Below, piece after piece: positions 1-61,823 of a stretch of 61,823 nucleotides of DNA. The DNA is taken from positions 1-61,823 of IMG/VR virus record IMGVR_UViG_3300022928_000025; one strand, given 5' to 3'. The DNA is from a virus. A program made the position numbers and the translations under genes. The stretch's first letter is position 1; every line of letters starts with the position of its first letter. The notes below the pieces were generated by a model. The model saw nothing but the letters and a program-made list of their open reading frames with translations, was not told the DNA's origin and ran no database searches.

Positions 1-101
1 TACAACTGACCTTGGTCAATGTTCATTTCAATTTCTTCTTCTGAACAAGAGATGGCTTTGACAAGAGTACCGTCGGTTTCATAGACAGCATAAATATTCA
101 T
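1..101 (-). CDS. Tail-fibre-associated small protein, partial (C-terminus cut by window edge)
   Basis: Only the first 33 codons are present. They are base-for-base identical to the start of the complete gene at 58784-59170, and the first 112 bases of the window match 59070-59181 exactly. The start codon overlaps the stop codon of the fibre gene 98-2899 (ATGA), so the two are translationally coupled. On a circular genome this is the same gene as 58784-59170, seen a second time beside the other fibre allele. Function is inferred from position only: a small protein directly after a fibre gene is often a fibre chaperone or tip protein. Confidence 0.7.
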   Translation of the reverse strand, partial: MNIYAVYETDGTLVKAISCSEEEIEMNIDQGQL

Positions 102-2899
102 CGTTTAACCCCTAACAAAGAAATAAACCAGTTACCACCAATAGCGCCCGAACCCGTGCTACTCGCGTAAATACGATAAGTAGTATTCCCAGTAGAGGGT
201 GTATGAACAAAGCCCGCACTCATACAGTCAGAGAAACCTTGACGGCTGGTCTGCCCAACTATACCTTCTTGAGCACCTGAAGATATTCTTAGTCCACGAG
301 TAACTTCGTTACTACCAGTTATTGTGGCAATAATGTTTAGCTGACCAAAAAATTGCACTTGAGATGGCAGGAGTGACGCGTTAGAACCCCAGTTAACTGT
401 GATAGATCCGATTTGGGTCCATGCCGATCCTATAGAAACACCGCTTCCAGCTGATATAGCGCGAGGGACAGTAACATTTTCGCCGGCGATCTTTAGAGTC
501 GTTACCGCCAAATTTTCGATTTTTGCGTTGGTGACAGCTTCGTTTTGTATCTTTGCCGTCTCTACAGCTAAGTCTCTTATCTTTGCTGTGTCTACAGCTA
601 AGTCTCTTATCTTTGCCGTGTTTACAGCTAAGTCTCCGATCTTAGCTTCGTCGACTGCGAGGTCACCAATTTTAAGATTTGTTATCTGACCATTTTTTAT
701 ATATGCGTCGGTTATGTAGACGCCAGGTAAAACAGTTTCGCCATTGATCGTCGTGGTAGTAGTTTGGACTGTGAACGGAACAAGTCCAGTGCCGTTGGGC
801 CCGACGATGGCAAAACGATCAGCCGCAACTAAAAACTGTGAAGTGTCCCCTCCAGCCACCGAACTCGTAGTGGCTAACCCGAAGCCTGCAACGTAGTTCG
901 TATTGCCCACAGTACCAATTTTAACAGTGTACTGCCCTTCCAAAGACTCCCCGTCTGCTTTGGCAAAGTAGTTCTGTTCGACCGCTGCCGAAGTCGGATA
1001 ACCGGCTAGCGTGCTAGTGGCGACGAGGGTAGAAGTAGCACTTGCTATGGCTTGGTCGGCTTGTGCAGACGTATAGTAATTATTAGTTAGCGTAGCGTTC
1101 GTCGCATAGTCAGCACCGGTTACAGTCGCGCTAAGTGTAGTAACGGCGCTTGATATCGCGCTGTCTGTTTGAGCCTGCGTATAGTAATTGGTAGTTAGCG
1201 TAGCGTTCGTCGCATAGTCAGCACCGGTTACAGTCGCACCAAGCGCGTTAACGGCGCTTGATATCGCGCTGTCTGTTTGAGCCTGCGTATAGTAATTGGT
1301 AGTTAGCGTAGCGTTCGTCGCATAGTCAGCACCAGTTACAGTCGCACCAAGCGCGTTAACGGCGCTTGCTATTGCACTATTTGCATCGGTCTTCGTATAG
1401 TAATTGGTGTTTAAGTCAGCAGTAGTTGTGTAATTACCTAATGCAGTAGTGGAGACTAAGTTTTGAGTCGCTGTAGATATAGCGCTGTCCGTGTCGGTAC
1501 GCGTGTAGTAATTGACAGTCAAGTTAGCAGTAGTTGTGTAATTACCTAACGTAGTAGTAGAGACTAAGTTTTGAGTCGCAGTAGAGATAGCACTGTCTGT
1601 GTCGGCACGCGTGTAATACGTCGAAGTTAGGTCGGCAGTGGTTGTGTAATTACCTAAAGATGCGATAGATGCAAGGCTCTGAGTCGCAGTAGAGATAGCA
1701 CTGTCCGCTTGGGCAGAAGTGTAATAATCGTTAGTCAGAGTTGCCCTTGTAGCTACTAACCCCGTAGTCGGGTTGTTAACAGTGGCCTCTAATACGTCTG
1801 AACGGCTAGACAATGCTGAATCAGCAGTGACCCGCGAAGTTTTTTCACTAAATACGAGCCCCGCCGATAACTGATTAACATCTGTGCCGTTGTAACCACC
1901 TCGCATCTGCGTGGCAAGAGTCTCTCTACTTGTAGCCTCTGCACTATCTGCGTCAGTTCGAGCAGTCGCTTCCTGCTGCAGAGCTGCTATAGATGCATAG
2001 TTTCCTGGCAAAGTTGTCGAAGTCAGGGTGGTTATCTGTTGTTCTACTGCTGCGTCACCATTACTACGCGCTAAAGCCTCATCAATTAACGCTTGCGCGC
2101 GCGTAGATGCCTCTGCACTAAGGGCAGTAGTTCTAGCGGATGCTTCTGCTTGAATAGCAGCAATACGCGCATTCGTTTCAGCTAATATGGCCGCATTACG
2201 AGCTGTCACTTCATCCGCAATTTCTTGGCCTATTCTCACATTGACAGAACCAGCGCCATTCCCATCAATTAAATTAATTCTAGAGGTAAGAGTGCTATAC
2301 AGCTGGCTTTCTGTAATCTCGCCAGTTAATAGCTCAAGCATAAATTCTACATCTACAGCGGTTTCTGCAAATGTACCAGCGCTTGAGTTCCACGGCCCTT
2401 TTTGATCGCGAGTATTTACATGCCGCACCCAATAATAATAAGACTGTGCTGACCCAACTTGGTCAGTAAAAACACTGCCGTGCTCAACCCCAACAAGAAT
2501 TGCATCCGCCAGTTGATCAACTGTATGGCGCCACACTTCTGTGTAAGCATGCGGCGAATATTGAAGATACGCTTGATCCCAATCAAGAATAATGATGCTG
2601 TAAGCGCCGGTCGCCTCAAACCCCGTAGGCGCCGTTGGTAAATCCGTCTCATTAACGTCTGTACCAATTGGCAGCAGACTAGACTGAGACTGCCCAAGAA
2701 TAAACGGCTTACCTTCGACAGCTAACCCGCTGTCAATTAACTCACGCGCAGTGATTGCTCTGTCCCTTGAGTCGCCTCGGCGCCCCAAACGAATTTCGAG
2801 AGCCTCTGCGACAGACTCTAAGTACCGCCTCATCGCGGGCGAAGCATCGGCGGGGAGCTTAGGGAATCCAGGAATTTTGGTTTCTTTAGGCGTCCTCAT
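98..2899 (-). CDS. Tail fibre / receptor-binding protein with lambda J-like C-terminal half (allele A, complete)
   Basis: A 933-residue fibre. Residues about 85-180 resemble the fibronectin-III-like module of lambda tip protein J (PTGFEATGAY, then a YTEVWRH core and an aromatic HVNTR strand). A coiled-coil stretch follows (TARNAAI, AEASART), then about seven 34-36-residue repeats of the type NYYTQAQTDSAISSAV. Next comes a short domain like the central fibre domain of J (EGQYTVKIG, VAGFGLA), a ladder of ten-residue repeats (AKIRDLAVDT), and a conserved 120-residue tip ending GGNWFISLLGVKR. The N-terminus overlaps the gene at 2896-4617 by 4 nt. J proteins belong to long-tailed phages, so a J-like fibre in a short-tailed phage is a modular exchange. 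A second, divergent allele fills 59167-61823. Confidence 0.8.
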   Translation of the reverse strand: MRTPKETKIPGFPKLPADASPAMRRYLESVAEALEIRLGRRGDSRDRAITARELIDSGLAVEGKPFILGQSQSSLLPIGTDVNETDLPTAPTGFEATGAYSIIILDWDQAYLQYSPHAYTEVWRHTVDQLADAILVGVEHGSVFTDQVGSAQSYYYWVRHVNTRDQKGPWNSSAGTFAETAVDVEFMLELLTGEITESQLYSTLTSRINLIDGNGAGSVNVRIGQEIADEVTARNAAILAETNARIAAIQAEASARTTALSAEASTRAQALIDEALARSNGDAAVEQQITTLTSTTLPGNYASIAALQQEATARTDADSAEATSRETLATQMRGGYNGTDVNQLSAGLVFSEKTSRVTADSALSSRSDVLEATVNNPTTGLVATRATLTNDYYTSAQADSAISTATQSLASIASLGNYTTTADLTSTYYTRADTDSAISTATQNLVSTTTLGNYTTTANLTVNYYTRTDTDSAISTATQNLVSTTALGNYTTTADLNTNYYTKTDANSAIASAVNALGATVTGADYATNATLTTNYYTQAQTDSAISSAVNALGATVTGADYATNATLTTNYYTQAQTDSAISSAVTTLSATVTGADYATNATLTNNYYTSAQADQAIASATSTLVATSTLAGYPTSAAVEQNYFAKADGESLEGQYTVKIGTVGNTNYVAGFGLATTSSVAGGDTSQFLVAADRFAIVGPNGTGLVPFTVQTTTTTINGETVLPGVYITDAYIKNGQITNLKIGDLAVDEAKIGDLAVNTAKIRDLAVDTAKIRDLAVETAKIQNEAVTNAKIENLAVTTLKIAGENVTVPRAISAGSGVSIGSAWTQIGSITVNWGSNASLLPSQVQFFGQLNIIATITGSNEVTRGLRISSGAQEGIVGQTSRQGFSDCMSAGFVHTPSTGNTTYRIYASSTGSGAIGGNWFISLLGVKR
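1030..1740 (-). repeat. Tandem repeats encoding the fibre shaft (about 108-nt period)
   Basis: Within the fibre gene the same segment recurs with near-identical DNA. The block beginning GTAGTTAGCG at 1191 is repeated at 1299, a period of 108 nt or 36 residues, and more diverged copies lie on both sides. The encoded unit is a Tyr-Tyr-Thr start, a short helix rich in Ala/Ser, and a GADYATNATL turn. Repeats this similar allow the shaft to lengthen or shorten by recombination. Confidence 0.8.
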
Positions 2900-4617
2900 G
2901 CATTTATCTCCGCCATAGTAGACGCAAGCACTATCTCGTTAACTTGGTGTGTCGAGCTCACCTCTACTTCCCACTCGCATCCGTAGTTAGAAGGTAACCT
3001 CATGACAGGCGCGGTGAGGTTCCCGTTAGAGATACCAGCAGGGACAGTAGTCACCTGAGTGTAAACTCCGGCTGTCTCTTGCAGCTGATAATCAGCTATA
3101 AGGACTCCATCACCCCAGACTTTTACATCTATAGGATACTGGTCGCTGTGGACTTTTATGCAGCCCATACTTGTTGGTGTGCTCACAAACTTACGACTCT
3201 TCCAAGACGACGTGCGCTTAACACTTGACCCTCGAAACTCGACAATTTCATTATCAATAATGAGATAAAGCTTACCTGTCTTTTTCCGAGTGAAACCGCC
3301 ACGCACTTCATTACTCATCGTAAAAGTAGAGAAGGCATTCTGTGGTTGTCGAGGGTCAAATATCCATCCGCCGTCGTTAGCGCCGTCATTCCAGAACGCG
3401 ACGTACAGTCCTTCGTATAAGAAGGCTTTGTAGGTCGACGCGTAGAAGTCAGCCGCCCACTGTTTTGGCTCTATAAACTCAGAGGAGACAACCGACCCTG
3501 TGGTGTTGGACACTTGTACGAGCCCGTCAGGACCGGCATAGAGTACGTACTCTCCCATATCAACAATTGACTCTTTGTTGATGCATGACTGAGCAACGTC
3601 TACTTGTATAGCGGTCATGGCCGAGGGTTCAGTGCCAGTGACAAAATAAGGGTAGCCCTTGGTCATTACCACTAAGCCATTGTTAGTTGCTGACAGTCCC
3701 ACTATCTCTTCTTCTATCGTGAGTCGATACTGGATAGGCCAAGCATGGGGCAGGTACGGTTCAGACAAACATAGTCGAGCGCCGGCGAATCCGGCAAAGA
3801 CACCATTTCCAATAGGAAGCAGCCCCTGCAAGGGACCGTCGGGATAAAGAGATGTGTTGTCATCTGGCGGGCCAACCCAAGTCTCAGAAGGCAGTACTTC
3901 GCCTAAAGCCGCTGACGCTTTGTTATCGCTGTAACTAACAGTGGAGAATGGAACCTCTGCAACAAACTGAAAGTAAGTCGCTGTACTACCAACGTTAGCG
4001 CGATATATGCGTTTTAATCCGTTACTAAAATCATAAGCGCCTGACGGATCGTTTGCGCTCGGCATCGAGATAGAAACCGTTTCAGTTGAAGTCCACTCAA
4101 CAATTGCAGATGCGGGACTTGGAGGCCCCTCTTCTCCGAAACTCGTAACTAACGTATAGACGTAAGATAAGTCCTGTGCTTCTTCTGTGTCGCTGGCTGT
4201 GCCTGTCTTGGACAGCGTAGGTGCACTAGTAGGTGCAGGTACCCCTAACCTATAAGATGCCGCCGGAAATACCGAGCCACTTATCATGCTGGTATATGTG
4301 CCCACGCGCGGATAATCTTGCCCTGTCCAATAGGCTCTTTCGTAAGTGTCTTGTGCAATAGGTGACTGTACTACAGAGATATTGGCTTCGTTAAACTCAA
4401 ATACAGCCCCGCCATCTATGCCGATGCGCTCATAATAATAAAGAGATTGGCGCTGGCCATTTGACAGCGTAGCAACGGCCAGATCTTCCTCAATAGGCGA
4501 CAAGCGCCCAGTGGTAAAGGTCACATTCTCCGCTTTCTGGCCAAGTGTTTCGCCGAGAAGTCTGGCTGATTTCGCCGGTGCAATACCGGCAAAACTTTCG
4601 AGTCTGAATACGGCCAT
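2896..4617 (-). CDS. Virion structural protein, probable tail nozzle/hub component
   Basis: 573 residues, no signal peptide or membrane segment, mostly short beta-strand-like stretches with aromatic turns (for example YVLYAGPDGLV and YVAFWNDGAND), a pattern like propeller or nozzle proteins. It lies directly before the J-like fibre (4-nt overlap) and after three small membrane or coiled-coil proteins in the late operon. I recognise no catalytic motif. By size and position it could be the equivalent of the T7 gp12-type nozzle that carries the fibre, but the adaptor-like genes are 22 kb away, so that assignment is an inference. Alternatives are a minor tail protein or fibre adaptor. Confidence 0.55.
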   Translation of the reverse strand: MAVFRLESFAGIAPAKSARLLGETLGQKAENVTFTTGRLSPIEEDLAVATLSNGQRQSLYYYERIGIDGGAVFEFNEANISVVQSPIAQDTYERAYWTGQDYPRVGTYTSMISGSVFPAASYRLGVPAPTSAPTLSKTGTASDTEEAQDLSYVYTLVTSFGEEGPPSPASAIVEWTSTETVSISMPSANDPSGAYDFSNGLKRIYRANVGSTATYFQFVAEVPFSTVSYSDNKASAALGEVLPSETWVGPPDDNTSLYPDGPLQGLLPIGNGVFAGFAGARLCLSEPYLPHAWPIQYRLTIEEEIVGLSATNNGLVVMTKGYPYFVTGTEPSAMTAIQVDVAQSCINKESIVDMGEYVLYAGPDGLVQVSNTTGSVVSSEFIEPKQWAADFYASTYKAFLYEGLYVAFWNDGANDGGWIFDPRQPQNAFSTFTMSNEVRGGFTRKKTGKLYLIIDNEIVEFRGSSVKRTSSWKSRKFVSTPTSMGCIKVHSDQYPIDVKVWGDGVLIADYQLQETAGVYTQVTTVPAGISNGNLTAPVMRLPSNYGCEWEVEVSSTHQVNEIVLASTMAEINA

Positions 4618-4869
4618 TTAGCCTCCTTTATTCTGCATCCAAAATATGGCCAGTAACGCTGACAACACAGCCGTAGTAACAAATTGCGCAATCGTTATGC
4701 GTATAGCTCTTTTAGTGCCGCGCCAAGACTCAAGTAAATTTCTTAATTCATGCATATCGCTGTAAGCATTCTCGTCATGAAGACCTATAGAACGAAGCGC
4801 CTCTTTTGCCCCCCTTGAAGCCGCTGCATCAAGAAGTTTGTTTAAACGTTCATCGTCGTTGTACAACAT
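4618..4869 (-). CDS. Small membrane-anchored phage protein
   Basis: 83 residues. A soluble, charged N-terminal half is followed by one C-terminal transmembrane helix (about residues 59-77, FVTTAVLSALLAIFW) and a short KGG tail. It sits in the late operon immediately upstream of 2896-4617. The topology resembles small holin-like or virion membrane proteins, but the lysis genes of this phage are clearly elsewhere (15.2-16.4 kb), so I give no function. Confidence 0.6.
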   Translation of the reverse strand: MLYNDDERLNKLLDAAASRGAKEALRSIGLHDENAYSDMHELRNLLESWRGTKRAIRITIAQFVTTAVLSALLAIFWMQNKGG

Positions 4870-4885
4870 GACTACTACTCCTACG

Positions 4886-5353
4886 TTATTTCGTAATAAC
4901 GCTAACGATCGCTAGCCCACAAAATAAAAATATAATGCCTATAAAAGCGAAACCTATACCGTCGATAATCAGACGTCTTCGTGCGGCTCTTGCTCTTGCT
5001 GCGTCTAGTCTCTGCTTGCGAATCGCCGTGCGCGTTCTAAGCATTTCGACATAAACGTCTTGGCCTACTGTATAAGTGATAATTTCACGTAGCTGCCGTT
5101 CCATCTGCATGGTTTTTTGTTTGGCCATTGTTATTTCAAGAGCAGCACTTTCCACTGAACCCTTGGCAAATAACTTAGACATAGCCGATGCGTTCTCTAC
5201 ACCAGCCTCAGCTTCTGCAATCTTGTCTTTGGCATCGAAAAAAGCGCCAAACTTATGCGCAAGATCATTGATCTCGTGACCTTTGCTAACCGCCGCTTGG
5301 ATATAGTTAAACGCTTTCCCTGCGGCTGATACGGCTGCGATGATTTCTATCAT
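4886..5353 (-). CDS. Coiled-coil protein with C-terminal membrane helix
   Basis: 155 residues. The first 100 are predicted largely helical and rich in Ala/Lys/Glu. A very basic patch follows (KQRLDAARARAARRR), and then a transmembrane helix at about residues 130-150 (GFAFIGIIFLFCGLAIVSV). It shares this N-out helix plus terminal anchor design with the next gene at 4618. The start overlaps the end of 5350-5553 by 4 nt. It is probably a virion-associated or host-membrane protein expressed late; no family is recognised with confidence. Confidence 0.6.
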   Translation of the reverse strand: MIEIIAAVSAAGKAFNYIQAAVSKGHEINDLAHKFGAFFDAKDKIAEAEAGVENASAMSKLFAKGSVESAALEITMAKQKTMQMERQLREIITYTVGQDVYVEMLRTRTAIRKQRLDAARARAARRRLIIDGIGFAFIGIIFLFCGLAIVSVITK

Positions 5354-5553
5354 TTGAAGACCTCAACTTTTTTAAGATCGACAAATTCGGGGACGCAAAA
5401 TGCGGAGATATTTGGTCCGAGGGAGGGAGATTTTCTTTGGCGGGTAAGACGGACAGCAAAATACTGGCAGCGATTTAAATCGTACCAGTGTGTCTTTCTA
5501 GTGTCTTGAGCGTTTCCGTCCAAGATAACTATAAGCGCAAATACTAAGCTCAT
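5350..5553 (-). CDS. Small conserved-looking phage protein, possible signal or anchor peptide
   Basis: 67 residues. The first 12 residues are hydrophobic (SLVFALIVILDG), short for a signal peptide, and are followed by a polar segment with an aromatic HWYDLNRCQYFA stretch. It overlaps the next gene by 4 nt and lies 12 nt after the bilin reductase stop, so it is co-transcribed with the pigment cassette. Whether it is exported or takes part in bilin chemistry cannot be told from sequence; its downstream neighbours suggest a virion or membrane role. Confidence 0.55.
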   Translation of the reverse strand: MSLVFALIVILDGNAQDTRKTHWYDLNRCQYFAVRLTRQRKSPSLGPNISAFCVPEFVDLKKVEVFK

Positions 5554-5565
5554 GCCGGAGGCCCA

Positions 5566-6231
5566 TCATAATTCAGGAAACAAACAATCCTGAATAAACG
5601 TATTAACTACCTCCTCCTGATACCCTAGCGCTGCCATGACTTTTGGTGTGTGTGGGTTCTGCTTCTGCCAGTAACAGTACTTATTCTGCGCTGCCGTGTA
5701 GTCCGTTGCACTTCGACTACCCACATTCTCTAGATAATAATCTAAGTTGCTACTGACTAACTGCACCACTTTATCTAGTTCATCTAAGTCCGTGATAAAA
5801 CCAGCAGCGACCATGTTGCTACTAAAAATATTCCTTGCCCACTCAGGCAACTCTCTTTCTTTCGACCAGCTGAACGGTGTTACTTGGTCTTCGAACTTCA
5901 AGAGCATTTCGTGACTTTCATCTATAGGACTGAAGTCATGGAATGCACCTGTTACTTTCTTAGGCCCCGCGATAAGGTCAAAACCAAAAACCGGTGCACC
6001 GTCGTTTGTGTGCGGGAACACGGTAAGATGCATCATATAGAGCTTCTTAGTATCCCTAGCATCTACAACATCAAGATGCGCCCTTCTAAACTTATCCGAT
6101 CGCCATAAGAAGTTTTGCCACGGATACCGATGCCCTTCGTCGTAGGTCTCGAACCCGTCAAACTTCGACACCAGAATATCTTTTGCTTGCTCTAACTTAG
6201 TGAATATTGTGCTTGGCTGCGACTTTGTCAT
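5566..6231 (-). CDS. Ferredoxin-dependent bilin reductase (PcyA/PcyX/PebS family)
   Basis: 221 residues. The FDBR core is visible: His68 in HLTVFP, then FGFDLIAG with Asp85, then FHDFSPID. The 17-residue spacing His68-Asp85 equals that of the catalytic His88/Asp105 pair of Synechocystis PcyA. The PcyA Glu76 position (HLE) reads HLD (Asp54) here. A C-terminal FIQDCLF carries Asp215, a candidate for the second catalytic Asp known from PebS. Such enzymes reduce biliverdin with electrons from ferredoxin to phycocyanobilin or phycoerythrobilin. Viral members include PebS of cyanophages and PcyX of marine metagenomic phages; the Glu-to-Asp change and the non-cyanobacterial context make a PcyX-like enzyme most likely, but product specificity is not readable from sequence. 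The start lies 35 nt inside the heme oxygenase gene. No ferredoxin gene is present, so the host must supply reductant. Confidence 0.9.
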   Translation of the reverse strand: MTKSQPSTIFTKLEQAKDILVSKFDGFETYDEGHRYPWQNFLWRSDKFRRAHLDVVDARDTKKLYMMHLTVFPHTNDGAPVFGFDLIAGPKKVTGAFHDFSPIDESHEMLLKFEDQVTPFSWSKERELPEWARNIFSSNMVAAGFITDLDELDKVVQLVSSNLDYYLENVGSRSATDYTAAQNKYCYWQKQNPHTPKVMAALGYQEEVVNTFIQDCLFPEL

Positions 6232-8317: not shown

Positions 8318-11074
8318 TTACGCGAATTGCGTTTGGGAAGCTAAAACAGTGTATGTCCCAGACCCAGTTTTAATTACTACATAAGAATAGATATCTATCG
8401 ACGAGGCATTCCCTTCGGTTGGTGCCTCGCCGCCCTGCCATTTAGGAGTCACACCAGCGCCATCTATCTGCACCGAGGTGTTGTAGTAAGCCGTACCACC
8501 ACAAGTATTCACGAAGACAACTGTTATGGTTTCACCAACGTCCATCAAACTGTTTAAAGTAGTTGACGAATCCCCGCGTAAATTAATCGTAAAATTACCT
8601 GCCGCGTTAGAGGTGTAATAGATTATTTGTTGTGGCAGCGCGTCGAAATTGATAGTGCCGTTTGCAGCAGTCGCTGAAACTAAAACACTTTCCTTTATAT
8701 CGCCATTAAGTAATGCGGAGCTAAAAGTTTTGTTAGACAACGCTTGTACACTAGCTAATGTGACTAGCTCAATATCGCCCGATCCTAATAAGGAACCGCT
8801 ATTGATAGTTTTTATATCGGTGCCCGAGACAAGCGTATCCTGCTTGAGCGCTAAGCCAGTAGATAGGCTAGACGCCGCGGTGGCTTGTCCCGCGTCTATG
8901 TAGGTCTTAACTGCGTACTCAGTTGGCACTGCGGTATTACTATTGCCATTGAGTAAAGGATCTGAAGAGAATTCATTAATAGTCTCGCCAAGCTGCGCGC
9001 CAATTGACCCCAGCCTCAATGAGGTCAGGCCGGCAAGATCGAACGCGCTCGCATTAAGAGTTGCACGGCCGGTGGCTTGGTCAATACGGAAGTACTCGCC
9101 GACACGGAAATTTCCGTTCTGGTCTGTAGATACGTAATAAACTCGTCCTGGAAATACTTCATCAACCTCGTTCCCTTGTGCAGGGGCTTGAGTTGGTTCT
9201 CCTGGATAATTTGTAGTAGCGATGCCTCCAGTTCCTATGTTCAAGAAGTCATGGCCTGTCAATCTCACTTGCGAATACAAAGATCGCATAGTGATGCCGG
9301 TCCCGTCTGGAGAACCATTTACTTTCTCTTGGGCTAAATAAATGGCAATTTGGCTCGATGTATCTACATAAGTTCCTGCCGAGCTCTGGATAACGTACGT
9401 AATTGAGTCGCCGGCGATTTGAATACTTTGACCAGGAATCGGTTCTGCGGACAAATTGTCAGCTACAATAATAAAACCTTTTTGATCTTCTAGGGCGGCA
9501 GAACCTACTGTGCCTGCGCCGCCGCTAGTAAATGTCAGCGTATTGCCTGACAAGAAGGTTCCAGTCGCGCCAGAAACATAAACTTTATCTGCTGATATCT
9601 GAACATTTGTTACAGTCGCTGTACCTCCATCGGAGCTTGTGACTGTGTCCCCAACGTTTATCGCGCCGCCGCCGTAGATAAAATTAAGTTGCTGTCCGTG
9701 TATTTGACCGGTTTGTGATGTTTCGTTGGCATCAAAGCCACGAGATGTTGCACCCCACGTACCGTAGCTATTATTACCGTTGAGGGATCGGATAAAACCT
9801 CCCCCAGAAGCCGCGTACCCCATATAGCAATAGTATGTAAAACAAGAAACAATCTCTGCTTTACCACCGTCTTTTGTCCAAAAACCTACACCGTTATCAC
9901 TGATAATTGTGTAACCGTGAAACAACATACTTTTTGCGCCGGCGCCATGAACCGACCCATCAACTAAAGCGCCAATTGCACCAGAACAAATAGCGGCGCA
10001 TTCCAAGACATAAGGAGATTTCGTAGTAGCGGGCGAATTAACATTAAAACCGACAACAACGCCGGCTGGTGTTGATGTTGTTATATCTTCAGGGGTGCTA
10101 CCTGGAACCCAACCGGTCATGCCTTTAAAAGTCATCTTGTTCAAGATTGAGCCATTACTCATCTGGAACATGGTCGAAGTGTTCGTTAAAAGCGTGGGGT
10201 GTACGTTTACCGTTCGCTGGCTATCGCCAACTATGGCGACATCTGGTGGTACAACAATTGGGCATATTTCTGTATACGTACCCGCCGATACATTAATAGT
10301 AGCTGGGTTTCCGGCTGCAGCGGCAGCTGCACAGGCGGCTTTAATTGTGGCAAATGCACCAGAGATTGTTTCGCCATTATTAGTGTCTGAACCTGCGGGG
10401 GTCACATAATAAACATCGGGGGAATAGAGAGAACCACTAAACAAGAATGATTCCCAGAAAACACCGTCAGTGCTCGGCGTATTTCCTGTTGTGTTTTGTA
10501 CCGCGATATAAAGACTGCTGTTGTAATTCACCACATCATTAAGTTGGTATGCTACAGCGGCGTCGTAAATACCCTCCCATTGAACACTTTCTGTTAAACG
10601 AGCCCACGAGTTACCGACAGCGCCAGGATTTGTGTTGGTGTTGTCGACGTTAGCCACATACACAGTGGCGCCGTATGATACTGAGTCACCTACTTTATAT
10701 GCAGCGGCCGCGTCCCATTCACTTCTAAAATTCCAACCGCCAACAAACAATGTCCAATATTCAGTGTCTGTTGGGATATTCCCTGTTGATTGCACAAGAT
10801 TTGAATACATATACAAGTTGCTGCCGTAACGAACGACGCTACCGTACCCGTATTCAGTTGCCACATCCCAAAGACCGGAGAAAGCAACGCCATTAGTCAT
10901 CCGGCCCCAGAAAGTTGCGGCCGAGGTCAGCGTACCTGTGGTCCTTGCGGTGCTTATGTAGACATAAGAATTGCCTTTGAAAGAAACAACATCATTGAAC
11001 TGATATTCAGTAGAGACACTCCATTCGCCTTTGAATTGGAATCTTATTTTTCCAAGGTCAAGAATCTGAGCCAT
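8318..11074 (-). CDS. Large tail fibre / tailspike with carbohydrate-binding-like repeats and beta-helix
   Basis: 918 residues. Residues about 10-210 hold four 48-52-residue modules of the form W-x5-Y-x-x-x-DVVxYxGxxYxA (EYQFNDVVSFKGNSYV, EYGYGSVVRYGSNLYM, AYKVGDSVSYGATVYV, AYQLNDVVNYNSSLYI), the signature of chitin-binding type-3-like or fibre anchor domains. From about residue 220 (YVTPAGSDTNNG, FATIKAACAAA) starts a right-handed beta-helix like DUF1565 pectate-lyase-fold proteins, continuing to about 600. The tail carries the common fibre motif LSNKTFSSA and a compact C-terminal domain. It is likely a glycan-binding, perhaps glycan-cleaving, spike. No catalytic residues can be assigned by eye. 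Confidence 0.75.
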   Translation of the reverse strand: MAQILDLGKIRFQFKGEWSVSTEYQFNDVVSFKGNSYVYISTARTTGTLTSAATFWGRMTNGVAFSGLWDVATEYGYGSVVRYGSNLYMYSNLVQSTGNIPTDTEYWTLFVGGWNFRSEWDAAAAYKVGDSVSYGATVYVANVDNTNTNPGAVGNSWARLTESVQWEGIYDAAVAYQLNDVVNYNSSLYIAVQNTTGNTPSTDGVFWESFLFSGSLYSPDVYYVTPAGSDTNNGETISGAFATIKAACAAAAAAGNPATINVSAGTYTEICPIVVPPDVAIVGDSQRTVNVHPTLLTNTSTMFQMSNGSILNKMTFKGMTGWVPGSTPEDITTSTPAGVVVGFNVNSPATTKSPYVLECAAICSGAIGALVDGSVHGAGAKSMLFHGYTIISDNGVGFWTKDGGKAEIVSCFTYYCYMGYAASGGGFIRSLNGNNSYGTWGATSRGFDANETSQTGQIHGQQLNFIYGGGAINVGDTVTSSDGGTATVTNVQISADKVYVSGATGTFLSGNTLTFTSGGAGTVGSAALEDQKGFIIVADNLSAEPIPGQSIQIAGDSITYVIQSSAGTYVDTSSQIAIYLAQEKVNGSPDGTGITMRSLYSQVRLTGHDFLNIGTGGIATTNYPGEPTQAPAQGNEVDEVFPGRVYYVSTDQNGNFRVGEYFRIDQATGRATLNASAFDLAGLTSLRLGSIGAQLGETINEFSSDPLLNGNSNTAVPTEYAVKTYIDAGQATAASSLSTGLALKQDTLVSGTDIKTINSGSLLGSGDIELVTLASVQALSNKTFSSALLNGDIKESVLVSATAANGTINFDALPQQIIYYTSNAAGNFTINLRGDSSTTLNSLMDVGETITVVFVNTCGGTAYYNTSVQIDGAGVTPKWQGGEAPTEGNASSIDIYSYVVIKTGSGTYTVLASQTQFA

Positions 11075-42738: not shown

Positions 42739-42953
42739 TGAACGAACTAGATTACTCAACGTGGGAAACACATGACCTTAAAAGTTTGCTAGATGAAATA
42801 ACCGAGATCTACAAAGATCGTTTAGCAAACCTCGTAATTGAGCAGATAAAACAAGATATCCAAAACGGAGATTGGACTGCTATCCACCAATTGTTGATGC
42901 TTGTTTCTATCCAATATTTAGAAGGCTATCTACCAGAAGAGGAGAACGAGTAA
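42738..42953 (+). CDS. Hypothetical helical protein
   Basis: 71 residues, mostly helix (LKSLLDEITEIYKDRLANLV, IEQIKQDI), ending YLPEEENE. One-base overlap with each neighbour. Confidence 0.5.
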   Translation: MNELDYSTWETHDLKSLLDEITEIYKDRLANLVIEQIKQDIQNGDWTAIHQLLMLVSIQYLEGYLPEEENE

Positions 42954-43156
42954 TGTCTTCACTAATTCCAGCTACATATTACGGTAACACCGCCGAAGAG
43001 TGTCGTCACATAATTGCTAGTTACCTTCACTACACACAATTTGGAAAAGTTATTGAAGAGCATCCTAATAAATATGAAAGCCTTGCGCCTTTTGAAGGAT
43101 GGTGGAACGAGTATATATCCGATGAAGAACCTAACTTTTTAGAGGAGCAAGTGTAA
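42953..43156 (+). CDS. Hypothetical small protein
   Basis: 67 residues. The start overlaps the previous stop (TAATG). NTAEECRHIIASYLHYTQFG and an acidic end. No motif. Confidence 0.5.
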   Translation: MSSLIPATYYGNTAEECRHIIASYLHYTQFGKVIEEHPNKYESLAPFEGWWNEYISDEEPNFLEEQV

Positions 43157-43302
43157 TGGCTACAATTACTTGGATTAACGAGCTAGATTCACAGGCTACT
43201 GACTTTATAGCGGAAGTAGTCCTCGAAGAATTGCAAGATAGAGGCGTTAACGCTACAGAAATTTCATTTCGCATCGAAGTGGAATACGAGGAGGAATTGT
43301 AA
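43156..43302 (+). CDS. Hypothetical tiny acidic protein
   Basis: 48 residues. Helix TDFIAEVVLEELQDRG, then a strand ISFRIEVEYEEEL. Overlaps its neighbours by a base at each end (TAATG), which supports translation despite its length. Confidence 0.5.
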   Translation: MATITWINELDSQATDFIAEVVLEELQDRGVNATEISFRIEVEYEEEL

Positions 43303-43508
43303 TGTGTCATTTCGATGAAAAAACTCAAACGCTTCAAGACCCTTGGTCGGTGGACGATGTACAGAATCAAAGACCCGATCTTAACCATGAGCAATCTGTC
43401 GAGGTGCTTGCTTTTATAGCGGATCGCTTTGACGCAAACATCGGTATCAATTGGGATGTTATAGATTCCGCAGCCGATAATTTGTATCCAGAGGAAGACG
43501 AGGTATGA
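43302..43508 (+). CDS. Hypothetical small acidic protein
   Basis: 68 residues, very acidic (DPWSVDDVQNQRPDLNHEQS, LYPEEDEV). GAGGAG before the start. One-base overlap upstream and 4 nt downstream. Confidence 0.5.
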   Translation: MCHFDEKTQTLQDPWSVDDVQNQRPDLNHEQSVEVLAFIADRFDANIGINWDVIDSAADNLYPEEDEV

Positions 43509-43693
43509 GGTGGGAAATTTTGTTTCGGTGGAATGACGAGCTAAACGACCCGCCGCGAACGGCGATAGTCTCAGACGACCCGTTGTCCTTGAAGGACGAC
43601 ACAGTTATGTACACGCTAGACGAAAACGAAGTAGCAAATGGCGTAATTGGCGATTACCTTGATTTTAGAATTATACAAGCGAGAGCGGAATGA
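43505..43693 (+). CDS. Hypothetical small protein
   Basis: 62 residues; ATGA overlap both sides. RWEILFRWNDELNDPPRTAI followed by acidic segments. No motif recognised. Confidence 0.5.
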   Translation: MRWEILFRWNDELNDPPRTAIVSDDPLSLKDDTVMYTLDENEVANGVIGDYLDFRIIQARAE

Positions 43694-43893
43694 GTAACGT
43701 TGATTACAGAGACTACGCTTTAGAAGGCGTGGAGAACGGCTTCTTTAATGCCGAGCATTTGCTGTTTTGCTGCCTCAAGTATATGTCGCAAGACGACGTC
43801 AGAGACATGTTAGAAATTAACGAGTATCCCTTATGGAAGGAAGGCAATAATGAAGCATGTAAGCTACACGACCTCGAAACAAACAGCCCGTAG
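43690..43893 (+). CDS. Hypothetical small protein
   Basis: 67 residues with LLFCCLKYMSQDDVRDMLEI (a double-Cys helix). Its end overlaps the methyltransferase start by 44 nt. No function assigned. Confidence 0.5.
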   Translation: MSNVDYRDYALEGVENGFFNAEHLLFCCLKYMSQDDVRDMLEINEYPLWKEGNNEACKLHDLETNSP

Positions 43894-45169
43894 TACACGC
43901 GTTTGGATAGAAGGCGAAGCCCTTACCCGATCAGGTTTTACAGTAGGCACCCCAATAGGCGTTGCCTTCAACAAAGAAAACAAAGAAGTTGTCATCTTTA
44001 AAGATGCTAACTCTACCCGCAAAGTCACCAACAGCAGTCGCAATGGTAAGTCACGCCCTATCATCGACTTGCACAACAAAGATATTCAAGACGTATTCCC
44101 CGCTGGAACTCGCGTTGTAGTCATGTATGCCGACGGCAACATACTCATGAAACACAACCACGAGGACCAAGCCAAAGACGAGCGAGAGAAGCGCTTGGCA
44201 CTTAACATCGAAACTAAAAAGTTGACCACAGCCTCGATGTTTACTGGTGGCGGCATCTCCCACGAGGCCATCCACCAAGCGGTGACCGACCAGGATATTA
44301 CGTGCAGCACAGCATGGATTGCCGAGGCCGAGGTTAAGTACAGCGAGTCAGCCCTTGGCAATTGCCTCTCGATCACTGACGACACGGTTATGTTATCCGG
44401 CACTGTCGAAGAGATAGAAGACATCTACTATAAAAAGGTAGATATCCTCAGCTTCTCCATGCCCTGCGCTGGCTTTAGCAAAGCAGGTAAGGTCAAGCAC
44501 AACCTCTCGTCAGAAGAACACAGCGGCACTGCCCTCTTCGGCGTCTATAACGCCCTTAAGATGGCTAACCCCGCCATAGTGATCAGCGAGAATGTAACCG
44601 AGGCCCAAGACTCTCCCATGTACACACTCCTCAGATGCGAATTACAGCGTCGGGGGTACAAAGTGTTCGAGCAAGTCCTGGATTCTTCCTACACCGATTC
44701 TTTAGAGAATAGAAAGCGGTACTGGCTTGTAGGTATATCAGAAGGTATTGCCCCTGAATCATTAGCCCTTGACCCTGTACAAGCGTCTAACCGCCTCTTA
44801 TCGAGTGTCTTGCAGCCCGTGCCTGAGCAGGAATGGAAAGATCATACTTACCTAAAAGACAAAGCCATCACTGACGCAGCTGCAGGCAAAGGCTTCGCTA
44901 AGCGTCAGTTACTTAATGGCTCTGAAACTCGAATAGGCACTATCGGTAGGTTCTATGCCAAGCGCCGAAGTACTGAGCCGTTCATGACCCGAGAGGATGG
45001 TAAAGAGAGATTATTGACTCCAATCGAGCACGCAGCGGTTAAGTCAGTGCCTGCTCACCTTATAGCAGGTAACAGCACGACAACTGCCCATGAAATTCTT
45101 GGTCAGTCAGTTGATTACTTGCAGCCCTACAAACTAATGCAATTAATATATTCATCTATTTATAAGTAA
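43850..45169 (+). CDS. DNA (cytosine-5)-methyltransferase with N-terminal extension
   Basis: 439 residues. Catalytic order: motif I-like TTASMFTGGGIS, motif IV SMPCAGFSKAGK with the catalytic Cys, motif VI SENV, motif VIII SLENRKRYWLVGI, and the C-terminal motifs IX-X EHAAVKSVPAHLIAG and ILGQSVDYLQP. It methylates C5 of cytosine in duplex DNA; no cognate endonuclease is adjacent, so it is an orphan, protecting phage DNA from host restriction. The first 115 residues (RVWIEGEALTRSGFTVGTPI, then KEVVIFKDANSTRKVTN) are an AbrB/SymE-like addition not found in typical enzymes. Confidence 0.88.
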   Translation: MKHVSYTTSKQTARSTRVWIEGEALTRSGFTVGTPIGVAFNKENKEVVIFKDANSTRKVTNSSRNGKSRPIIDLHNKDIQDVFPAGTRVVVMYADGNILMKHNHEDQAKDEREKRLALNIETKKLTTASMFTGGGISHEAIHQAVTDQDITCSTAWIAEAEVKYSESALGNCLSITDDTVMLSGTVEEIEDIYYKKVDILSFSMPCAGFSKAGKVKHNLSSEEHSGTALFGVYNALKMANPAIVISENVTEAQDSPMYTLLRCELQRRGYKVFEQVLDSSYTDSLENRKRYWLVGISEGIAPESLALDPVQASNRLLSSVLQPVPEQEWKDHTYLKDKAITDAAAGKGFAKRQLLNGSETRIGTIGRFYAKRRSTEPFMTREDGKERLLTPIEHAAVKSVPAHLIAGNSTTTAHEILGQSVDYLQPYKLMQLIYSSIYK

Positions 45170-45184
45170 TACTGATATTTACTA

Positions 45185-45213
45185 TTGACCATAACTATTA
45201 GCAACGCTAATAT
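45185..45213 (+). promoter_or_regulatory. Promoter with operator (site 6), upstream of replication module
   Basis: TTGACC (45185-45190), 17 bp, TAATAT (45208-45213). Operator TATTAG-CAACG-CTAATA at 45196-45212. The start of transcription should be near 45220, so the leader is about 13 nt and consists mainly of the ribosome site GGAGG. Confidence 0.8.
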
Positions 45214-45232
45214 CATAACCCTTGGAGGTTGC

Positions 45233-45448
45233 ATGGAAACGCAAGAATACCTTTCCCTCGCAGAACAGCTGGATTCTCAGCTTCGCCAAGATCAGCACCA
45301 GTTTGAGTTGTACTCGTTTATGACGGTATGGCTCAAATCTAGGATGCCTAATCTATATACCGAGCTAGAAGCCGACTTCAGGAGGATAGAGCCGAATGTC
45401 TATTCAGTACACGCAGCAAGAGATAATTCCATCGACCATCCCTTTTAG
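45233..45448 (+). CDS. Hypothetical protein, first gene of the replication operon
   Basis: 71 residues; the ATG at 45233 is preceded by GGAGG at 45224-45228. A frame extending upstream to 45185 would translate the operator and is rejected. Helical (YLSLAEQLDSQLRQDQHQFE). Function unknown. Confidence 0.6.
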   Translation: METQEYLSLAEQLDSQLRQDQHQFELYSFMTVWLKSRMPNLYTELEADFRRIEPNVYSVHAARDNSIDHPF

Positions 45449-45749
45449 CAAAACATTTGCTAAAATTATGTATGCCAATTCACGGCATGTAAGCTCACAT
45501 GATTGGTCTTTGTTACCTAACACCCCACTTATAAGTATTATTAGTGATGATGTTGATACTTATTTCTTGCTCGTACCGGAAGACAGTTATCACCTTCACC
45601 AAAGCCTCATAGACTTTGGATTCTCATTCGCGTTTGTTTCTCTGTTGCAGGTAGCAGTTAGAAACAGCGCTGCGTGGATACACTTCTCACCTACAAACCC
45701 ATTGATTTCCGGCATTCATGTGTTCTCACAAGAGGACATTGTTCAATGA
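45396..45749 (+). CDS. Hypothetical protein
   Basis: 117 residues. Ribosome site AGGAGG ahead of the ATG. Hydrophobic strands (TPLISIISDDVDTYFLLVPE, DFGFSFAFVSLLQVAV) in a soluble-looking fold; a long overlap (53 nt) with the preceding gene. No family recognised. Confidence 0.55.
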   Translation: MSIQYTQQEIIPSTIPFSKTFAKIMYANSRHVSSHDWSLLPNTPLISIISDDVDTYFLLVPEDSYHLHQSLIDFGFSFAFVSLLQVAVRNSAAWIHFSPTNPLISGIHVFSQEDIVQ

Positions 45750-45976
45750 GTTCTTTCACCGCACAAATTCAAGAGAAAGACGAAGACCGCCAAAGAATAG
45801 AATCCCATATACAGGCCTATTTAGCAGCGGGCGGCACTATCACTCAAGTGCCCCGTGGCTATATGGCCAAACATGCCGAAGATGATTATATAGATAGAAA
45901 GCGTGCCGCTGAGAATTCACTCAAGCTTCGGTTCTCTTTTAATTCCAGTAACAAAGATCGAAATCTAACCCATTAA
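45746..45976 (+). CDS. Hypothetical protein
   Basis: 76 residues. ATGA overlap upstream. IQEKDEDRQRIESHIQAYLA then GGTITQVPRGYMAKHAEDDY and basic end; the AYLAxGGxITQVPRG pattern recurs in phage and plasmid small proteins. Eleven nucleotides ahead of the DNA polymerase. Confidence 0.6.
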   Translation: MSSFTAQIQEKDEDRQRIESHIQAYLAAGGTITQVPRGYMAKHAEDDYIDRKRAAENSLKLRFSFNSSNKDRNLTH

Positions 45977-45987
45977 GGAGAGTTACT

Positions 45988-47787
45988 ATGTTAGTAACTC
46001 TTGATTTCGAGACTTACTTTGACGTCCGTCTATCTTTAACTAAGATGACTACGATGCAGTACATCAACGACCCCGAATTTAAAGTTTGGGGCGCTTCTTT
46101 GAAGTTTGATGACTTACCCGCAGAGTGGTACGGCGAATCAGATATAGAAGAGGCTATCTCTCAGGTCAACTGGGATGAAGCTTCTTTACTGTGCCACAAC
46201 ACAGCATTTGACGGGGCAGTTCTTGCTCAGCATTACGGACACACCCCCAAATACTATCTAGATACGAGCTCAATGGCGCGTGGCATTTATCCTGGACATT
46301 CGTCCTCGTTAAAGAATACAGCCATTAGAGTATTCCCTGATGATGAATCAAAGCGCAAAGGCGATGACTTATCTAAAGCAAAAGGTATCTACGACTTACC
46401 TCCTGAGATTGAAGAGGCTCTGGCTTCGTACTGCGTGCAAGACAGCGAACTTACTTATGCCATCTATCAGGCAATAAAAGACAACCTTCCACAGTCTGAA
46501 ATGGATCTTATCGATCAAACAATACGCATGTTTGTCGAACCAGAATTGATCCTTGACCGTGAGCGTTTAACGATCTACATGGACGGGGAAAAAGCCAACT
46601 CGGAAAAAGCTATATCAGACTCAGGTGTAGCGCGAGAAGTTCTATCCTCAAACGCCAAGTTCTCTCTCTACATAGAAGAGACGCTAGGCTTAACAGTACC
46701 CACTAAGAAGTCCCCTACTACAGGTAAAGACATTCCCGCGCTCGGTAAAAACGACGCAGGCTTTCAACAGCTAGCCAAGATGTACCCGCAGCACAAGCAT
46801 GTATGGGACGCAAGAACAGCAGTCAAGTCTCGTCTTAAGGAGACACGAGCTAAGCGCTTCTTAGACGCAGCTAACCCTGATAATAAGATTGGCATACCAC
46901 TTCGCTACTATGCAGCTCACACAGGACGCTACGGCGGCTCTGACAAACTTAATTTTCAAAATATGCCCAGAGGCTCAGAACTCAGAAAATGCCTTTGTTC
47001 TCCCAAAGGGCATTATATATACGTTGCAGACTTATCAAATATAGAAGCGAGGATGCTTGCATGGTTATCTGGTCAAGATGACTTACTAGAGCAATTCCGA
47101 ACTGGGACTGATGTCTATTCAGCCTTTGCTTCGTCTATCTATGACCGAGAGATAAATAAGGATGATGATCCCACTGAGCGTTTCGTAGGAAAAACCGCTG
47201 TACTCGGCCTTGGCTACGGCATGGGATGGAAGAAATTCCAAAGCACCCTTGCTCTTGGTGCAGCAGGCCCAGTTGTAGAAGTCCAAGACGAGAAAGCGTG
47301 GCAGATCGTTAATGCTTATCGTTCGAAATTCTGGCGCATACCGCATTTATGGTCTGTCTGTAGTCAGTTTTTAATCGATATGCTCTCAGGCTCTGACAAC
47401 GCATACAGTGTTCTTAGAACTGAGAAGAATAAGATCATACTCCCTAACTCAATGTGTCTTTACTACGAAGGGCTAACCAACACTCGCGACGGTTTCCAGT
47501 TCTCTTCCGGTAATAAGACTACTTACACATATGGCGGCAAGATTACAGAAAATGTCGTTCAAGCTCTTAGCAGGATTGTTGTCACAGACGCTCTCCTGCG
47601 CATTTCTAAGATAGCGGACATCAAAGTCTGCCTCACAGTCCACGATGAGATTGTTTGCATAGCTCCTGAAGAAAATCCAGAACAGCGTCTGCAACAAATC
47701 ATCGACACTATGTGCATCGCACCTAGTTGGGCCGAAGACCTTCCCCTCGCCGCCGAGGGCGGCTTCGACAGAGCATACTCTAAATGA
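45988..47787 (+). CDS. DNA polymerase, family A, with 3'-5' exonuclease
   Basis: 599 residues. Exonuclease: DFETYFD (Asp6, Glu8), HNTAFD (Asp75), YCVQDSE (Asp152). Polymerase: motif A DLSNIEAR (Asp348), motif B O-helix Arg398-x3-Lys402-x3-Leu406-x3-Tyr410 (RFVGKTAVLGLGYG), and motif C VHDEIV (His552, Asp553). Leu406 corresponds to Phe762 of E. coli Pol I. This is the replicative polymerase. In marine phage surveys Leu at this site has been linked with temperate lifestyles, which fits the integrase and repressor here. It overlaps the CsrA-like gene by 4 nt. Confidence 0.95.
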   Translation: MLVTLDFETYFDVRLSLTKMTTMQYINDPEFKVWGASLKFDDLPAEWYGESDIEEAISQVNWDEASLLCHNTAFDGAVLAQHYGHTPKYYLDTSSMARGIYPGHSSSLKNTAIRVFPDDESKRKGDDLSKAKGIYDLPPEIEEALASYCVQDSELTYAIYQAIKDNLPQSEMDLIDQTIRMFVEPELILDRERLTIYMDGEKANSEKAISDSGVAREVLSSNAKFSLYIEETLGLTVPTKKSPTTGKDIPALGKNDAGFQQLAKMYPQHKHVWDARTAVKSRLKETRAKRFLDAANPDNKIGIPLRYYAAHTGRYGGSDKLNFQNMPRGSELRKCLCSPKGHYIYVADLSNIEARMLAWLSGQDDLLEQFRTGTDVYSAFASSIYDREINKDDDPTERFVGKTAVLGLGYGMGWKKFQSTLALGAAGPVVEVQDEKAWQIVNAYRSKFWRIPHLWSVCSQFLIDMLSGSDNAYSVLRTEKNKIILPNSMCLYYEGLTNTRDGFQFSSGNKTTYTYGGKITENVVQALSRIVVTDALLRISKIADIKVCLTVHDEIVCIAPEENPEQRLQQIIDTMCIAPSWAEDLPLAAEGGFDRAYSK

Positions 47788-47981: not shown

Positions 47982-47988
47982 GTGACAT

Positions 47989-51583: not shown

Positions 51584-51725
51584 AAAAATTCAATTATCAA
51601 TTATCTCCTTATTATTTATAGCCATTGGGCTTTCATTATTTAGCCACGCAGTAAGCCTTGCATTCATAGGCTTGCTTGCGTTCGGCCTAATATTTCTTGC
51701 GACACAAATCATTCGGAGTGATTGA
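51564..51725 (+). CDS. Small two-helix membrane protein
   Basis: 53 residues, two membrane helices (ISLLFIAIGLSLFSHAV and LAFIGLLAFGLIFLATQI). Start overlaps the preceding gene by 20 nt and the stop overlaps the next start. Function unknown; early membrane proteins of this type often act in superinfection exclusion. Confidence 0.55.
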   Translation: MTIPLIKKIQLSIISLLFIAIGLSLFSHAVSLAFIGLLAFGLIFLATQIIRSD

Positions 51726-58588: not shown

Positions 58589-58590
58589 GG

Positions 58591-58794: not shown

Positions 58795-59170
58795 TTATAA
58801 TTAGCCTTTTTGAGACATACATAGGATGTCTAAGCTCAAAGAAATAGTCCCCCCCTACATCAGCGCTGAACGAGAGCTCTCCATCATCTTCAGGTGTTAC
58901 TACTGCGTCGGGCCATCTCACCTTTGTTCCAGTGGGAATATTAGTAACACTTATTGTGCTGCCTAACGTGGCAGGAGAAACGTTAAGTTCTGGGAACTCG
59001 GTCTTATCTACTATCGCACCGCCGCTTATGTACTGTGTATCGTAATTTGCGAATACATCAGTGGCCATATACAACTGACCTTGGTCAATGTTCATTTCAA
59101 TTTCTTCTTCTGAACAAGAGATGGCTTTGACAAGAGTACCGTCGGTTTCATAGACAGCATAAATATTCAT
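58784..59170 (-). CDS. Fibre-associated protein (complete copy)
   Basis: 128 residues. NIYAVYETDGTLVKAISCSE at the start, an N-terminal beta domain and a C-terminal Ig-like domain (VSPATLGSTISVTNIPTGTK, VGGDYFFELRHPMYVSKRLI). Start overlaps the fibre stop (ATGA). Small proteins with this start and a C-terminal Ig fold are often tail-fibre assembly or tip proteins. The window's first 101 bases repeat its 5' end. Confidence 0.6.
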   Translation of the reverse strand: MNIYAVYETDGTLVKAISCSEEEIEMNIDQGQLYMATDVFANYDTQYISGGAIVDKTEFPELNVSPATLGSTISVTNIPTGTKVRWPDAVVTPEDDGELSFSADVGGDYFFELRHPMYVSKRLIINVA

Positions 59171-61823
59171 CGTTTAACCCCCAACAAAGAAATAAACCAG
59201 TTACCACCAATAGCGCCCGAACCCGTACTGCTGCCGTAAATACGGTAAGTAGTATTCCCAGTAGACGGTGTATGAACAAAGCCCGCACTCATACAGTCAG
59301 AGAAACCTTGAATGCTAGACTGTCCAACTATACCTTCTGCCGAACCTGCAGCTATTCTAAGTCCACGAGTAACTTCGTTAGTACCAGTTGATGTAGCAAT
59401 AATGTTTAGCTGACCAAAAAATTGCACTTGAGATGGTAGGAGTGACGCGGTAGAACCCCAGTTAATTGTGATAGATCCGATTTGGGTCCATCCCGATCCT
59501 ATAGAAACACCGCTTCCAGCTGATATAGCGCGAGGGACAGTGATATTTTCGCCGGCGACATTTAAAGTTTGTATTTGAGCACTGCCAATCTTTGCAGTGG
59601 TTATTTGAGCATCACCAATCTTAGCGCTGGTTATTTGAGCCTCACCAATCTTAGCGGTCGTTATAGTTGCGTTGGCTATCTTGGCCCCCGTCACGGCCAG
59701 GTTATCAATTTTTCCTGTAGTCACAGCTAAGTCGGCAATCTTTGCGACGTCTACTGCTAGATCTCCAATTTTGGCAGTAGTAATAGTACCGTTCTGTATG
59801 AATGCGTCTTTTATATAAACCCCAGTGAGAACAGTTTCTCCGCCAATCGTTGTTGGGCTCGTCCTTATAATAAAAGGAATATCGAAATTTTGAGTCGTAG
59901 AACCGATAGCAAACTCATCGGCTCTTACATAAAACTTAGAAGAAGTGCTGTTATTAACGAGCCCAAACCCCGCAACCATGCCATTTGAATCAATTCTTAC
60001 TGAGTACTCGCCCTCAAGCCCATCTATAGACGTGGAGTTCTGGCTTACTGTAGCCGACAACCCATTCACGTTTGTAGTGACTTGGTTCACTGATGAAGCG
60101 AGCGTGCTTACCTGACCCGTGACTGAGTTGACACTCGACTCGACAGTGTTTATCTGTTGAACGAGCCCTGAAGTACTGCTGCCGATAGTAATCTCGATAG
60201 CATTTATATCTTGGGCATTGGCAGATATTGTGCCCGCTTGCGAAGTCACAGTCGTTGTCAGGTTAGATAAACCAGTCGCCGTAGCAGTCAATCCTGTAGC
60301 CGGATCGTTAACACTAGACTCGAGGGTGTTAAGCCGAGAACCGTGGGAAGTAATTACCCCGTTTTGTGTTGACACAGTAGTGCTGAGGCTCGATAACCCT
60401 CCAGCTGTCGCATTCACACCGGTAGTTGGATCATTGACCGTTGTCTCAAGGCTGGTGATATCTAAGGCGTTGGTAGAGATATTGTCGCCTTGTTGAGTAA
60501 CCGTATTTGACAACGTAGAAAGAGCGCCAGCCGTAGCAGACAAACCGGTTGTCGGATGGTTAACAGTTGTCTCGAGGCTGGTGATATCGGTAGCATTGGT
60601 AGAGATGTTGTCACCCTGCTGAGTAACGGTCGTAGACAAGTTTGACAGCGCGCTAGCTGTCGCATCAACTCCGGTTGTCGGGTGGTTTACAGTTGTTTCA
60701 AGATTCGTAATGTCAGAAGCGTTAGTTGTAATACTATTGCCCTGCTGCGTCACTGTTGTTTGCAGACCAGACAAAGCACTAGCTGTCGCATCAACTCCGG
60801 TTGTCGGGTTGTTAACAGTTGTCTCAAGAGCAGTAATGTCAGAGGCATTAGTTGTAATACTATTGCCCTGCTGCGTCACTGTTGTTTCTAGACCAGACAA
60901 AGCGGTGGCTGTCGCATCAACTCCGGTTGTCGGATGATTGACCGTTGTTTCGAGAGCAGTAATATCAGAAGCGTTTGTGGCGGTAGTTTGTTGTAGAGTG
61001 GTTATATTTGAACTGTTCGAACCCACAGTCGTATTCAGATTAGTTATTAGTGAAGTTTGCGTCGCAGTCACTGTCTCTAACGACGCAATATCATTTTCGT
61101 TTGCCGCAATGCTCAACTGAGCTGCCGTTATAGCTCCCTGTGCAGTAGCTAAATTGGACTGAGTTATAGCTAAATTTGATTCAGCCGTAGCTAAATTGGT
61201 TTCAACCGTAGATACAGCAAGCTCAATATCAGCAATGCTAAGCTCCTGCGCATCTATTAGATCTATTTTGTCAATCAAACCCTGATAAAACGCATCCTCA
61301 GTTATCGAACCCGTAAGCAACTCAAGAATAAATTCGACATCGATAGCCGTTTCAGCAAACGTGCCAGCATTTGAGTTCCAAGGCCCCTTCTGGTTACGAG
61401 TATTTACATGCCGCGCCCAATAGTAGTTCGCTTGCCCACCGCCAACTTGGTCGGTAAACATCATGCCGTGCGAAACACCTACTAAGACTGCATCCGCCAG
61501 CTGGTCAACAGTATGCCGCCAAACTTCTGTGTAAGCATGGGGAAAATAAGTAGGTTGGTCCCACTCCAAAATAACAACACTGTAAGCGCCGGTCGCTTCA
61601 AACCCCGTAGGCGCCGGTGGCAAACTTGTCTCGTTAACGTCTGTACCAATTGGCAGCAGACTAGACTGAGACTGCCCAAGAATGAACGGTTTGCCCTCGA
61701 CAGCTAACCCGCTGTCAATTAACTCACGCGCAGTGATTGCTCTGTCCCTTGAGTCGCCTCGGCGCCCCAAACGAATTTCGAGAGCCTCTGCGACAGACTC
61801 TAAGTACCGCCTCATCGCGGGCG
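59167..61823 (-). CDS. Tail fibre / receptor-binding protein, lambda J-like (allele B, 5' end beyond window)
   Basis: At least 885 residues; about 22 N-terminal residues lie outside. The first 190 and the last 120 residues follow allele A closely (for example YTEVWRHTVDQLADA, and SGAIGGNWFISLLGVKR). The middle is unrelated: instead of NYYT repeats it has about six 42-residue units (SALSGLQTTVTQQGNSITTN and SDITNLETTVNHPTTGVDAT), a coiled coil with strong SDIT...LETTVNxPTTG phase. The same J-like domain (EGEYSVRIDSNGMVAGFGL) and ten-residue AKIGDAQIT ladder follow. Same locus as 98-2899, swapped shaft. Confidence 0.8.
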   Translation of the reverse strand, partial: PAMRRYLESVAEALEIRLGRRGDSRDRAITARELIDSGLAVEGKPFILGQSQSSLLPIGTDVNETSLPPAPTGFEATGAYSVVILEWDQPTYFPHAYTEVWRHTVDQLADAVLVGVSHGMMFTDQVGGGQANYYWARHVNTRNQKGPWNSNAGTFAETAIDVEFILELLTGSITEDAFYQGLIDKIDLIDAQELSIADIELAVSTVETNLATAESNLAITQSNLATAQGAITAAQLSIAANENDIASLETVTATQTSLITNLNTTVGSNSSNITTLQQTTATNASDITALETTVNHPTTGVDATATALSGLETTVTQQGNSITTNASDITALETTVNNPTTGVDATASALSGLQTTVTQQGNSITTNASDITNLETTVNHPTTGVDATASALSNLSTTVTQQGDNISTNATDITSLETTVNHPTTGLSATAGALSTLSNTVTQQGDNISTNALDITSLETTVNDPTTGVNATAGGLSSLSTTVSTQNGVITSHGSRLNTLESSVNDPATGLTATATGLSNLTTTVTSQAGTISANAQDINAIEITIGSSTSGLVQQINTVESSVNSVTGQVSTLASSVNQVTTNVNGLSATVSQNSTSIDGLEGEYSVRIDSNGMVAGFGLVNNSTSSKFYVRADEFAIGSTTQNFDIPFIIRTSPTTIGGETVLTGVYIKDAFIQNGTITTAKIGDLAVDVAKIADLAVTTGKIDNLAVTGAKIANATITTAKIGEAQITSAKIGDAQITTAKIGSAQIQTLNVAGENITVPRAISAGSGVSIGSGWTQIGSITINWGSTASLLPSQVQFFGQLNIIATSTGTNEVTRGLRIAAGSAEGIVGQSSIQGFSDCMSAGFVHTPSTGNTTYRIYGSSTGSGAIGGNWFISLLGVKR
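60300..60960 (-). repeat. Tandem 126-nt repeats encoding the alternative fibre shaft
   Basis: The marker CGCATCAACTCCGGTTGTCG appears at 60661, 60787 and 60913, exactly 126 nt (42 residues) apart, and more diverged copies extend to about 60300. Period and sequence differ from the 108-nt repeats of allele A. Confidence 0.85.

Follow-up and report, generated by a model that had tools for sequence, protein, structure and literature searches.

Window ends of a 61,823 bp virus record probably represent two alleles of one fibre gene on a circular podovirus-like genome

The window, by which we mean the whole stretch of DNA analysed here, is a virus record of 61,823 bp that opens and closes inside a fibre gene, on the (-) strand at both ends. 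We consider it very probable that these ends reflect a fibre variant combined with an assembly effect and not a gene duplication, a judgement that applies to the explanation as a whole, including the origin of the allelic fibres by shaft exchange. Under this explanation, the window would be an assembled walk over one circular (or circularly permuted) temperate podovirus-like genome; the walk would begin in a side arm with allele A, join the common genome at a 127-mer, round the circle through 58.8 kb, cross allele B and halt at the returning 127-mer. Each phage molecule would carry one fibre gene, located between the internal virion protein gene and a gene for a 128-aa protein, and A and B would be alternative fibres of very close phages, in which homologous recombination replaces the shaft and leaves the flanking anchor and tip conserved. 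We infer that A lies at the same locus in the same population and that recombination is the origin of the pair, and any effect on host binding would likewise be presumptive.

To compare the two ends we aligned the window with itself. The left edge recurs exactly over 112 nt near the right end, with the first difference at position 113, and a stretch of 127 nt further in recurs exactly as the right end itself, with the first difference at 2714 (Table 1). Overall identity to the right-end counterpart is 93.6% for positions 1-499 and 85.5%, gaps included, for positions 2333-2841. The earlier note had described these two identities, and they hold letter for letter, with two fibre genes of different shafts lying between them. 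Beyond the fibre genes, the self-comparison detected no further repeats of such kind in the window, only short repeats within the shafts. The first and last bases of the window share no exact terminal overlap, and an end-repeat test would therefore not call the window circular; the right end instead repeats the internal 127-mer, and the end-to-end exact repeat of length k, which is the mark of a k-mer-closed circle, is absent from it.

Table 1. Positions of the fibre alleles, their neighbouring genes and the shared edges in the window.
Feature	Coordinates	Strand	Basis
Left edge, identical to 59070-59181 over 112 nt (less than k); allele-A arm ends here (dead end); includes the truncated start of another 128-aa gene copy	1..112	.	
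Counterpart of 1-112, in intact context	59070..59181	.	
127-mer common to both alleles, sole branch node of the k=127 graph	2715..2841	.	sequence comparison and graph
Second copy of the 127-mer, right window end	61697..61823	.	sequence comparison and graph
Allele A of the fibre gene, intact at 933 aa; J-like central fibre with Phage_Tail_Tip domain	98..2899	-	
Allele B of the fibre gene, truncated at the window end, 884/904 aa	59167..61821	-	
Allele A shaft (residues 191-640), with YYT...TDSAIS in its repeats; nearest to L007/L013	980..2329	-	
Allele B shaft (residues 171-590), with ITTNASDITALETTVN in its repeats; nearest to L030	60052..61311	-	
Allele A tip, residues 809-933, predicted C1q/TNF-like jelly roll	101..475	-	
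Allele B tip, 90% identical to the allele A tip	59170..59544	-	
Internal virion protein phrog_511, 573 aa, upstream of the fibre	2896..4617	-	
128-aa gene downstream of the fibre, accompanying the same tip in L029, L030 and L031	58784..59170	-	

Each allele has matches to phage tail-fibre families and to the Phage_Tail_Tip domain known from J-like fibres; among solved structures, sequence searches found only tip attachment proteins J as relatives, over about 60 residues. The first 20 residues missing from allele B are those encoded at 2840-2899. Along allele A, the amino acid identity to B is 100% in residues 20-61, 83% in residues 62-190, 27% in the shaft, 56% in residues 641-767 and 90% in the tip, so the divergent shaft that had been described between shared edges is indeed there, the two shafts being essentially unrelated. 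Within the anchor, the 127 identical bases give way at once to DNA that has diverged strongly.

Outside evidence on how the ends are related comes from an IMG/VR contig of 29,863 bp, 3300020601_000057, listed here as L006, L012, L026, L029, L055 and L058. This contig follows the window from 43759 to 61823 and then continues, without a gap, at 2842 up to 13461, with 0 mismatches over 28,685 bp; it holds one fibre gene, allele B, and no second one. It differs from the window only at 43.76 kb and below and so represents a slightly different strain, assembled separately; that it is separate follows from its own name and these differences, with samples that are possibly not independent. At this border (window 42950-43758 against L058:1-1180) small genes are rearranged or diverged next to the 28.7 kb of identity. 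L029 of this contig and two diverged relatives, L030 and L031, each have one fibre gene flanked by the internal virion protein gene and the 128-aa gene. The junction from 61823 to 2842, together with the single-fibre relatives, supports the circular genome of about 59.07 kb that had been suggested earlier, its size being 58,982 bp with allele B, or 59,069 bp with A, provided that closure is at base 1. These data also bear on a true tandem duplication, with both fibre genes side by side on one molecule. Both copies are direct and lie in one contig, as such a duplication would have it, but the junction contig runs into 2842 with one fibre gene, the relatives have a single fibre, and the exact end of 127 nt is of the kind that assemblers produce (PMC10914622), so that we regard this alternative as highly improbable. 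Both copies on one molecule were not seen, the contig, L030 and L031 having one copy each, and for the 3300020601 strain a duplication is contradicted by the single-fibre junction.

We built a de Bruijn graph with k=127 from the allele-B circle (58,982 bp) and the allele-A arm. The graph has one branch node, a 127-mer with two ways in and one way out, and one dead end at window base 1, and smaller values of k give more branches. In this graph the window is the walk from the dead end to the node, round the circle and to the node again. As the left identity of 112 nt is shorter than 127, an assembler working at k=127 is unable to join the end of A to 59.07 kb. The overlap length points to 127 as the true k of the assembler; in simulations, metaSPAdes and MEGAHIT left end overlaps of maxK where repeats break contigs, and within-population variation was modelled as well (COBRA, PMC10914622). 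A symmetric bubble was also considered and rejected, as its two edges should each share 127 nt, and the left one shares 112. The earlier note had likened the 127-nt end to an assembler k-mer, and this stands; the 112-nt identity is shorter than k and looks like the dead end of the allele-A arm and not like the second edge of a bubble. In addition, the contig L005, whose record prefix 3300028115 is that of another sample, ends exactly at window base 2715, which suggests that the fork was present in its sample too.

The relationships of the separate modules indicate how the alleles may have arisen. Shaft A is closest to L007/L013 at 66-67% identity, and the internal virion protein likewise has its nearest relatives there (91%). 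Allele B is closest to L030, at 63% in the shaft, 89% in the tail-tip domain and 80% in the following repeats, with internal virion proteins in L030 and L031 only 57-58% identical to that of the window. Such incongruent module relationships, taken with the abrupt switch at the anchor, are the usual mark of modular recombination, and the pattern of A and B fits an ordinary modular exchange of fibres. Allele A was found in no contig besides the window, so that its link to 58.8 kb was not seen; a near-identical backbone was observed for the allele-B contig. It is possible, if on balance unlikely, that the A arm came from a co-occurring sister phage that has the 2.7-5.7 kb of the internal virion protein region in common by recent recombination and is different elsewhere, in which case the window would be chimeric at its left 2.7 kb and the allele-B circle would be unaffected. 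L005, identical to the window over 2715-5707 (2,993 bp, exact) and sharply different thereafter, speaks for such an origin, as does shaft A being nearest to L007/L013, whose backbone differs. The first 112 bases of A, on the other hand, match their counterpart exactly, the start of the downstream gene included, which fits the same locus and a close backbone. In L005 itself, 23 mismatches from 5708 on and the loss of similarity beyond 6146 mark a second mosaic breakpoint.

Returning to the alleles as variants of one locus, the part exchanged is the shaft and the tip hardly differs, which does not imply any switch of receptor. The tip model (mean pLDDT 76) is a beta jelly roll, and its better matches include C1q/TNF-like heads and trimeric lectins; this gives modest support to a C1q/TNF-like jelly roll as a predicted fold, which is evidence on fold and not on function. 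Among four sequences, the variable sites of the tip are densest at residues 65-78 (8 of 21 in a stretch of 14 residues) and surround loop 66-69 of the model, and equally dense clustering arose in 1.3% of shuffles, or in 2.9% for A against B. We put forward with considerable doubt that selection acts on the reach or flexibility of the fibre and not on receptor identity, the shaft (its length and repeat type) being the unit of exchange and the tip being kept, except for one loop, within one population. The concentration of A/B differences in residues 65-78 could also be expected if a programmed switch, such as a diversity-generating retroelement, an invertible cassette or silent copies, generated both alleles within a single genome, and a retron-type reverse transcriptase does sit close to this locus in phiARM81mr. 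But every base type is represented among the A/B differences, and the window has no inverted 25-mer repeats and no third fibre copy or silent shaft; a search for a diversity-generating retroelement gave no RVT_1 match in the window and no further repeat copy in the self-comparison. Since neither a reverse transcriptase nor inverted repeats nor silent copies turned up in the window, the retroelement and the cassette were rejected, and a programmed switch of any kind is hardly credible.

The tip and the 128-aa gene had no match among named phages, and when the tip alignment served as the query, the hits were limited to three contigs that had been found before. The 128-aa gene is 78-79% conserved in two diverged relatives, alongside the same fibre tip, and may encode a chaperone or accessory of the tip. 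Elsewhere in the window, a 918-aa protein (8318-11074) has a tail-fibre match to phrog_9851 and an N-terminal match to CBM_5_12, making it a candidate second host-binding protein by its sequence.

Allelic fibre genes can mask complete circular phage genomes from end-repeat tests, and the common part of the window is a full circle. Screening records for an end k-mer that recurs internally beside an allelic gene would recover complete genomes together with natural fibre variants, and the pattern of conserved tip and swapped shaft provides a testable case for the role of the shaft in adsorption.

The marks of a temperate podovirus of about 60 kb are all present: the genome encodes a P22-like portal, a terminase and an integrase, and the fibre lies directly downstream of the phrog_511 protein, in the window as in phiARM81mr. 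By homology (PMC9144972), the virion would be short-tailed and packaging would be headful. The Bcep22-like phage JC1, which is terminally redundant and circularly permuted (PMC9144972), is about the same size as the window genome and has relatives among the phages matched here. In phiARM81mr the annotated reverse transcriptase lies close upstream of the fibre (L037:6175-7461). Megablast of window positions 1-25000 against named phages gave no match. As to the host, a first scan of genome contigs found no relative and an alignment scan found only relatives of the internal virion protein at 27-41%, mostly in Aeromonas; we therefore claim no host.

In comparison with known systems, the genome resembles temperate podoviruses of about 60 kb (phiARM81mr, Bcep22-like and Stx-type phages) in its P22-like portal, the phrog_511 protein followed by a J-like fibre, the integrase and the genome size, but its internal virion protein is only about 32% identical to those of the nearest named phages, and its tip and 128-aa gene are without counterpart among them. 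With the k-mer-overlap contig ends described for COBRA (PMC10914622) it has in common an exact end overlap of plausible maxK at a branch, whereas here the window meets itself with a different allele, so that an end repeat is lacking and the circularity goes unnoticed. In marine phages, metaviromic islands are described where related, concurrent genomes differ in host-recognition genes, among which those for tail fibres and C1q-like proteins are some of the commonest (Mizuno et al. 2014, PMC3909814). The present case would be similar in that A and B would be fibre/C1q-like variants of related phages, but in those islands the N-terminus is conserved and the C-terminus variable, whereas here it is the shaft that is exchanged, between an anchor and a tip that both stay conserved. 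Fibre variation of this kind is thus already known, and a conserved tip with a swapped shaft is mildly unusual; what our analysis adds is the exchange of the middle of a fibre instead of its end, and an assembly pattern that conceals a complete genome.
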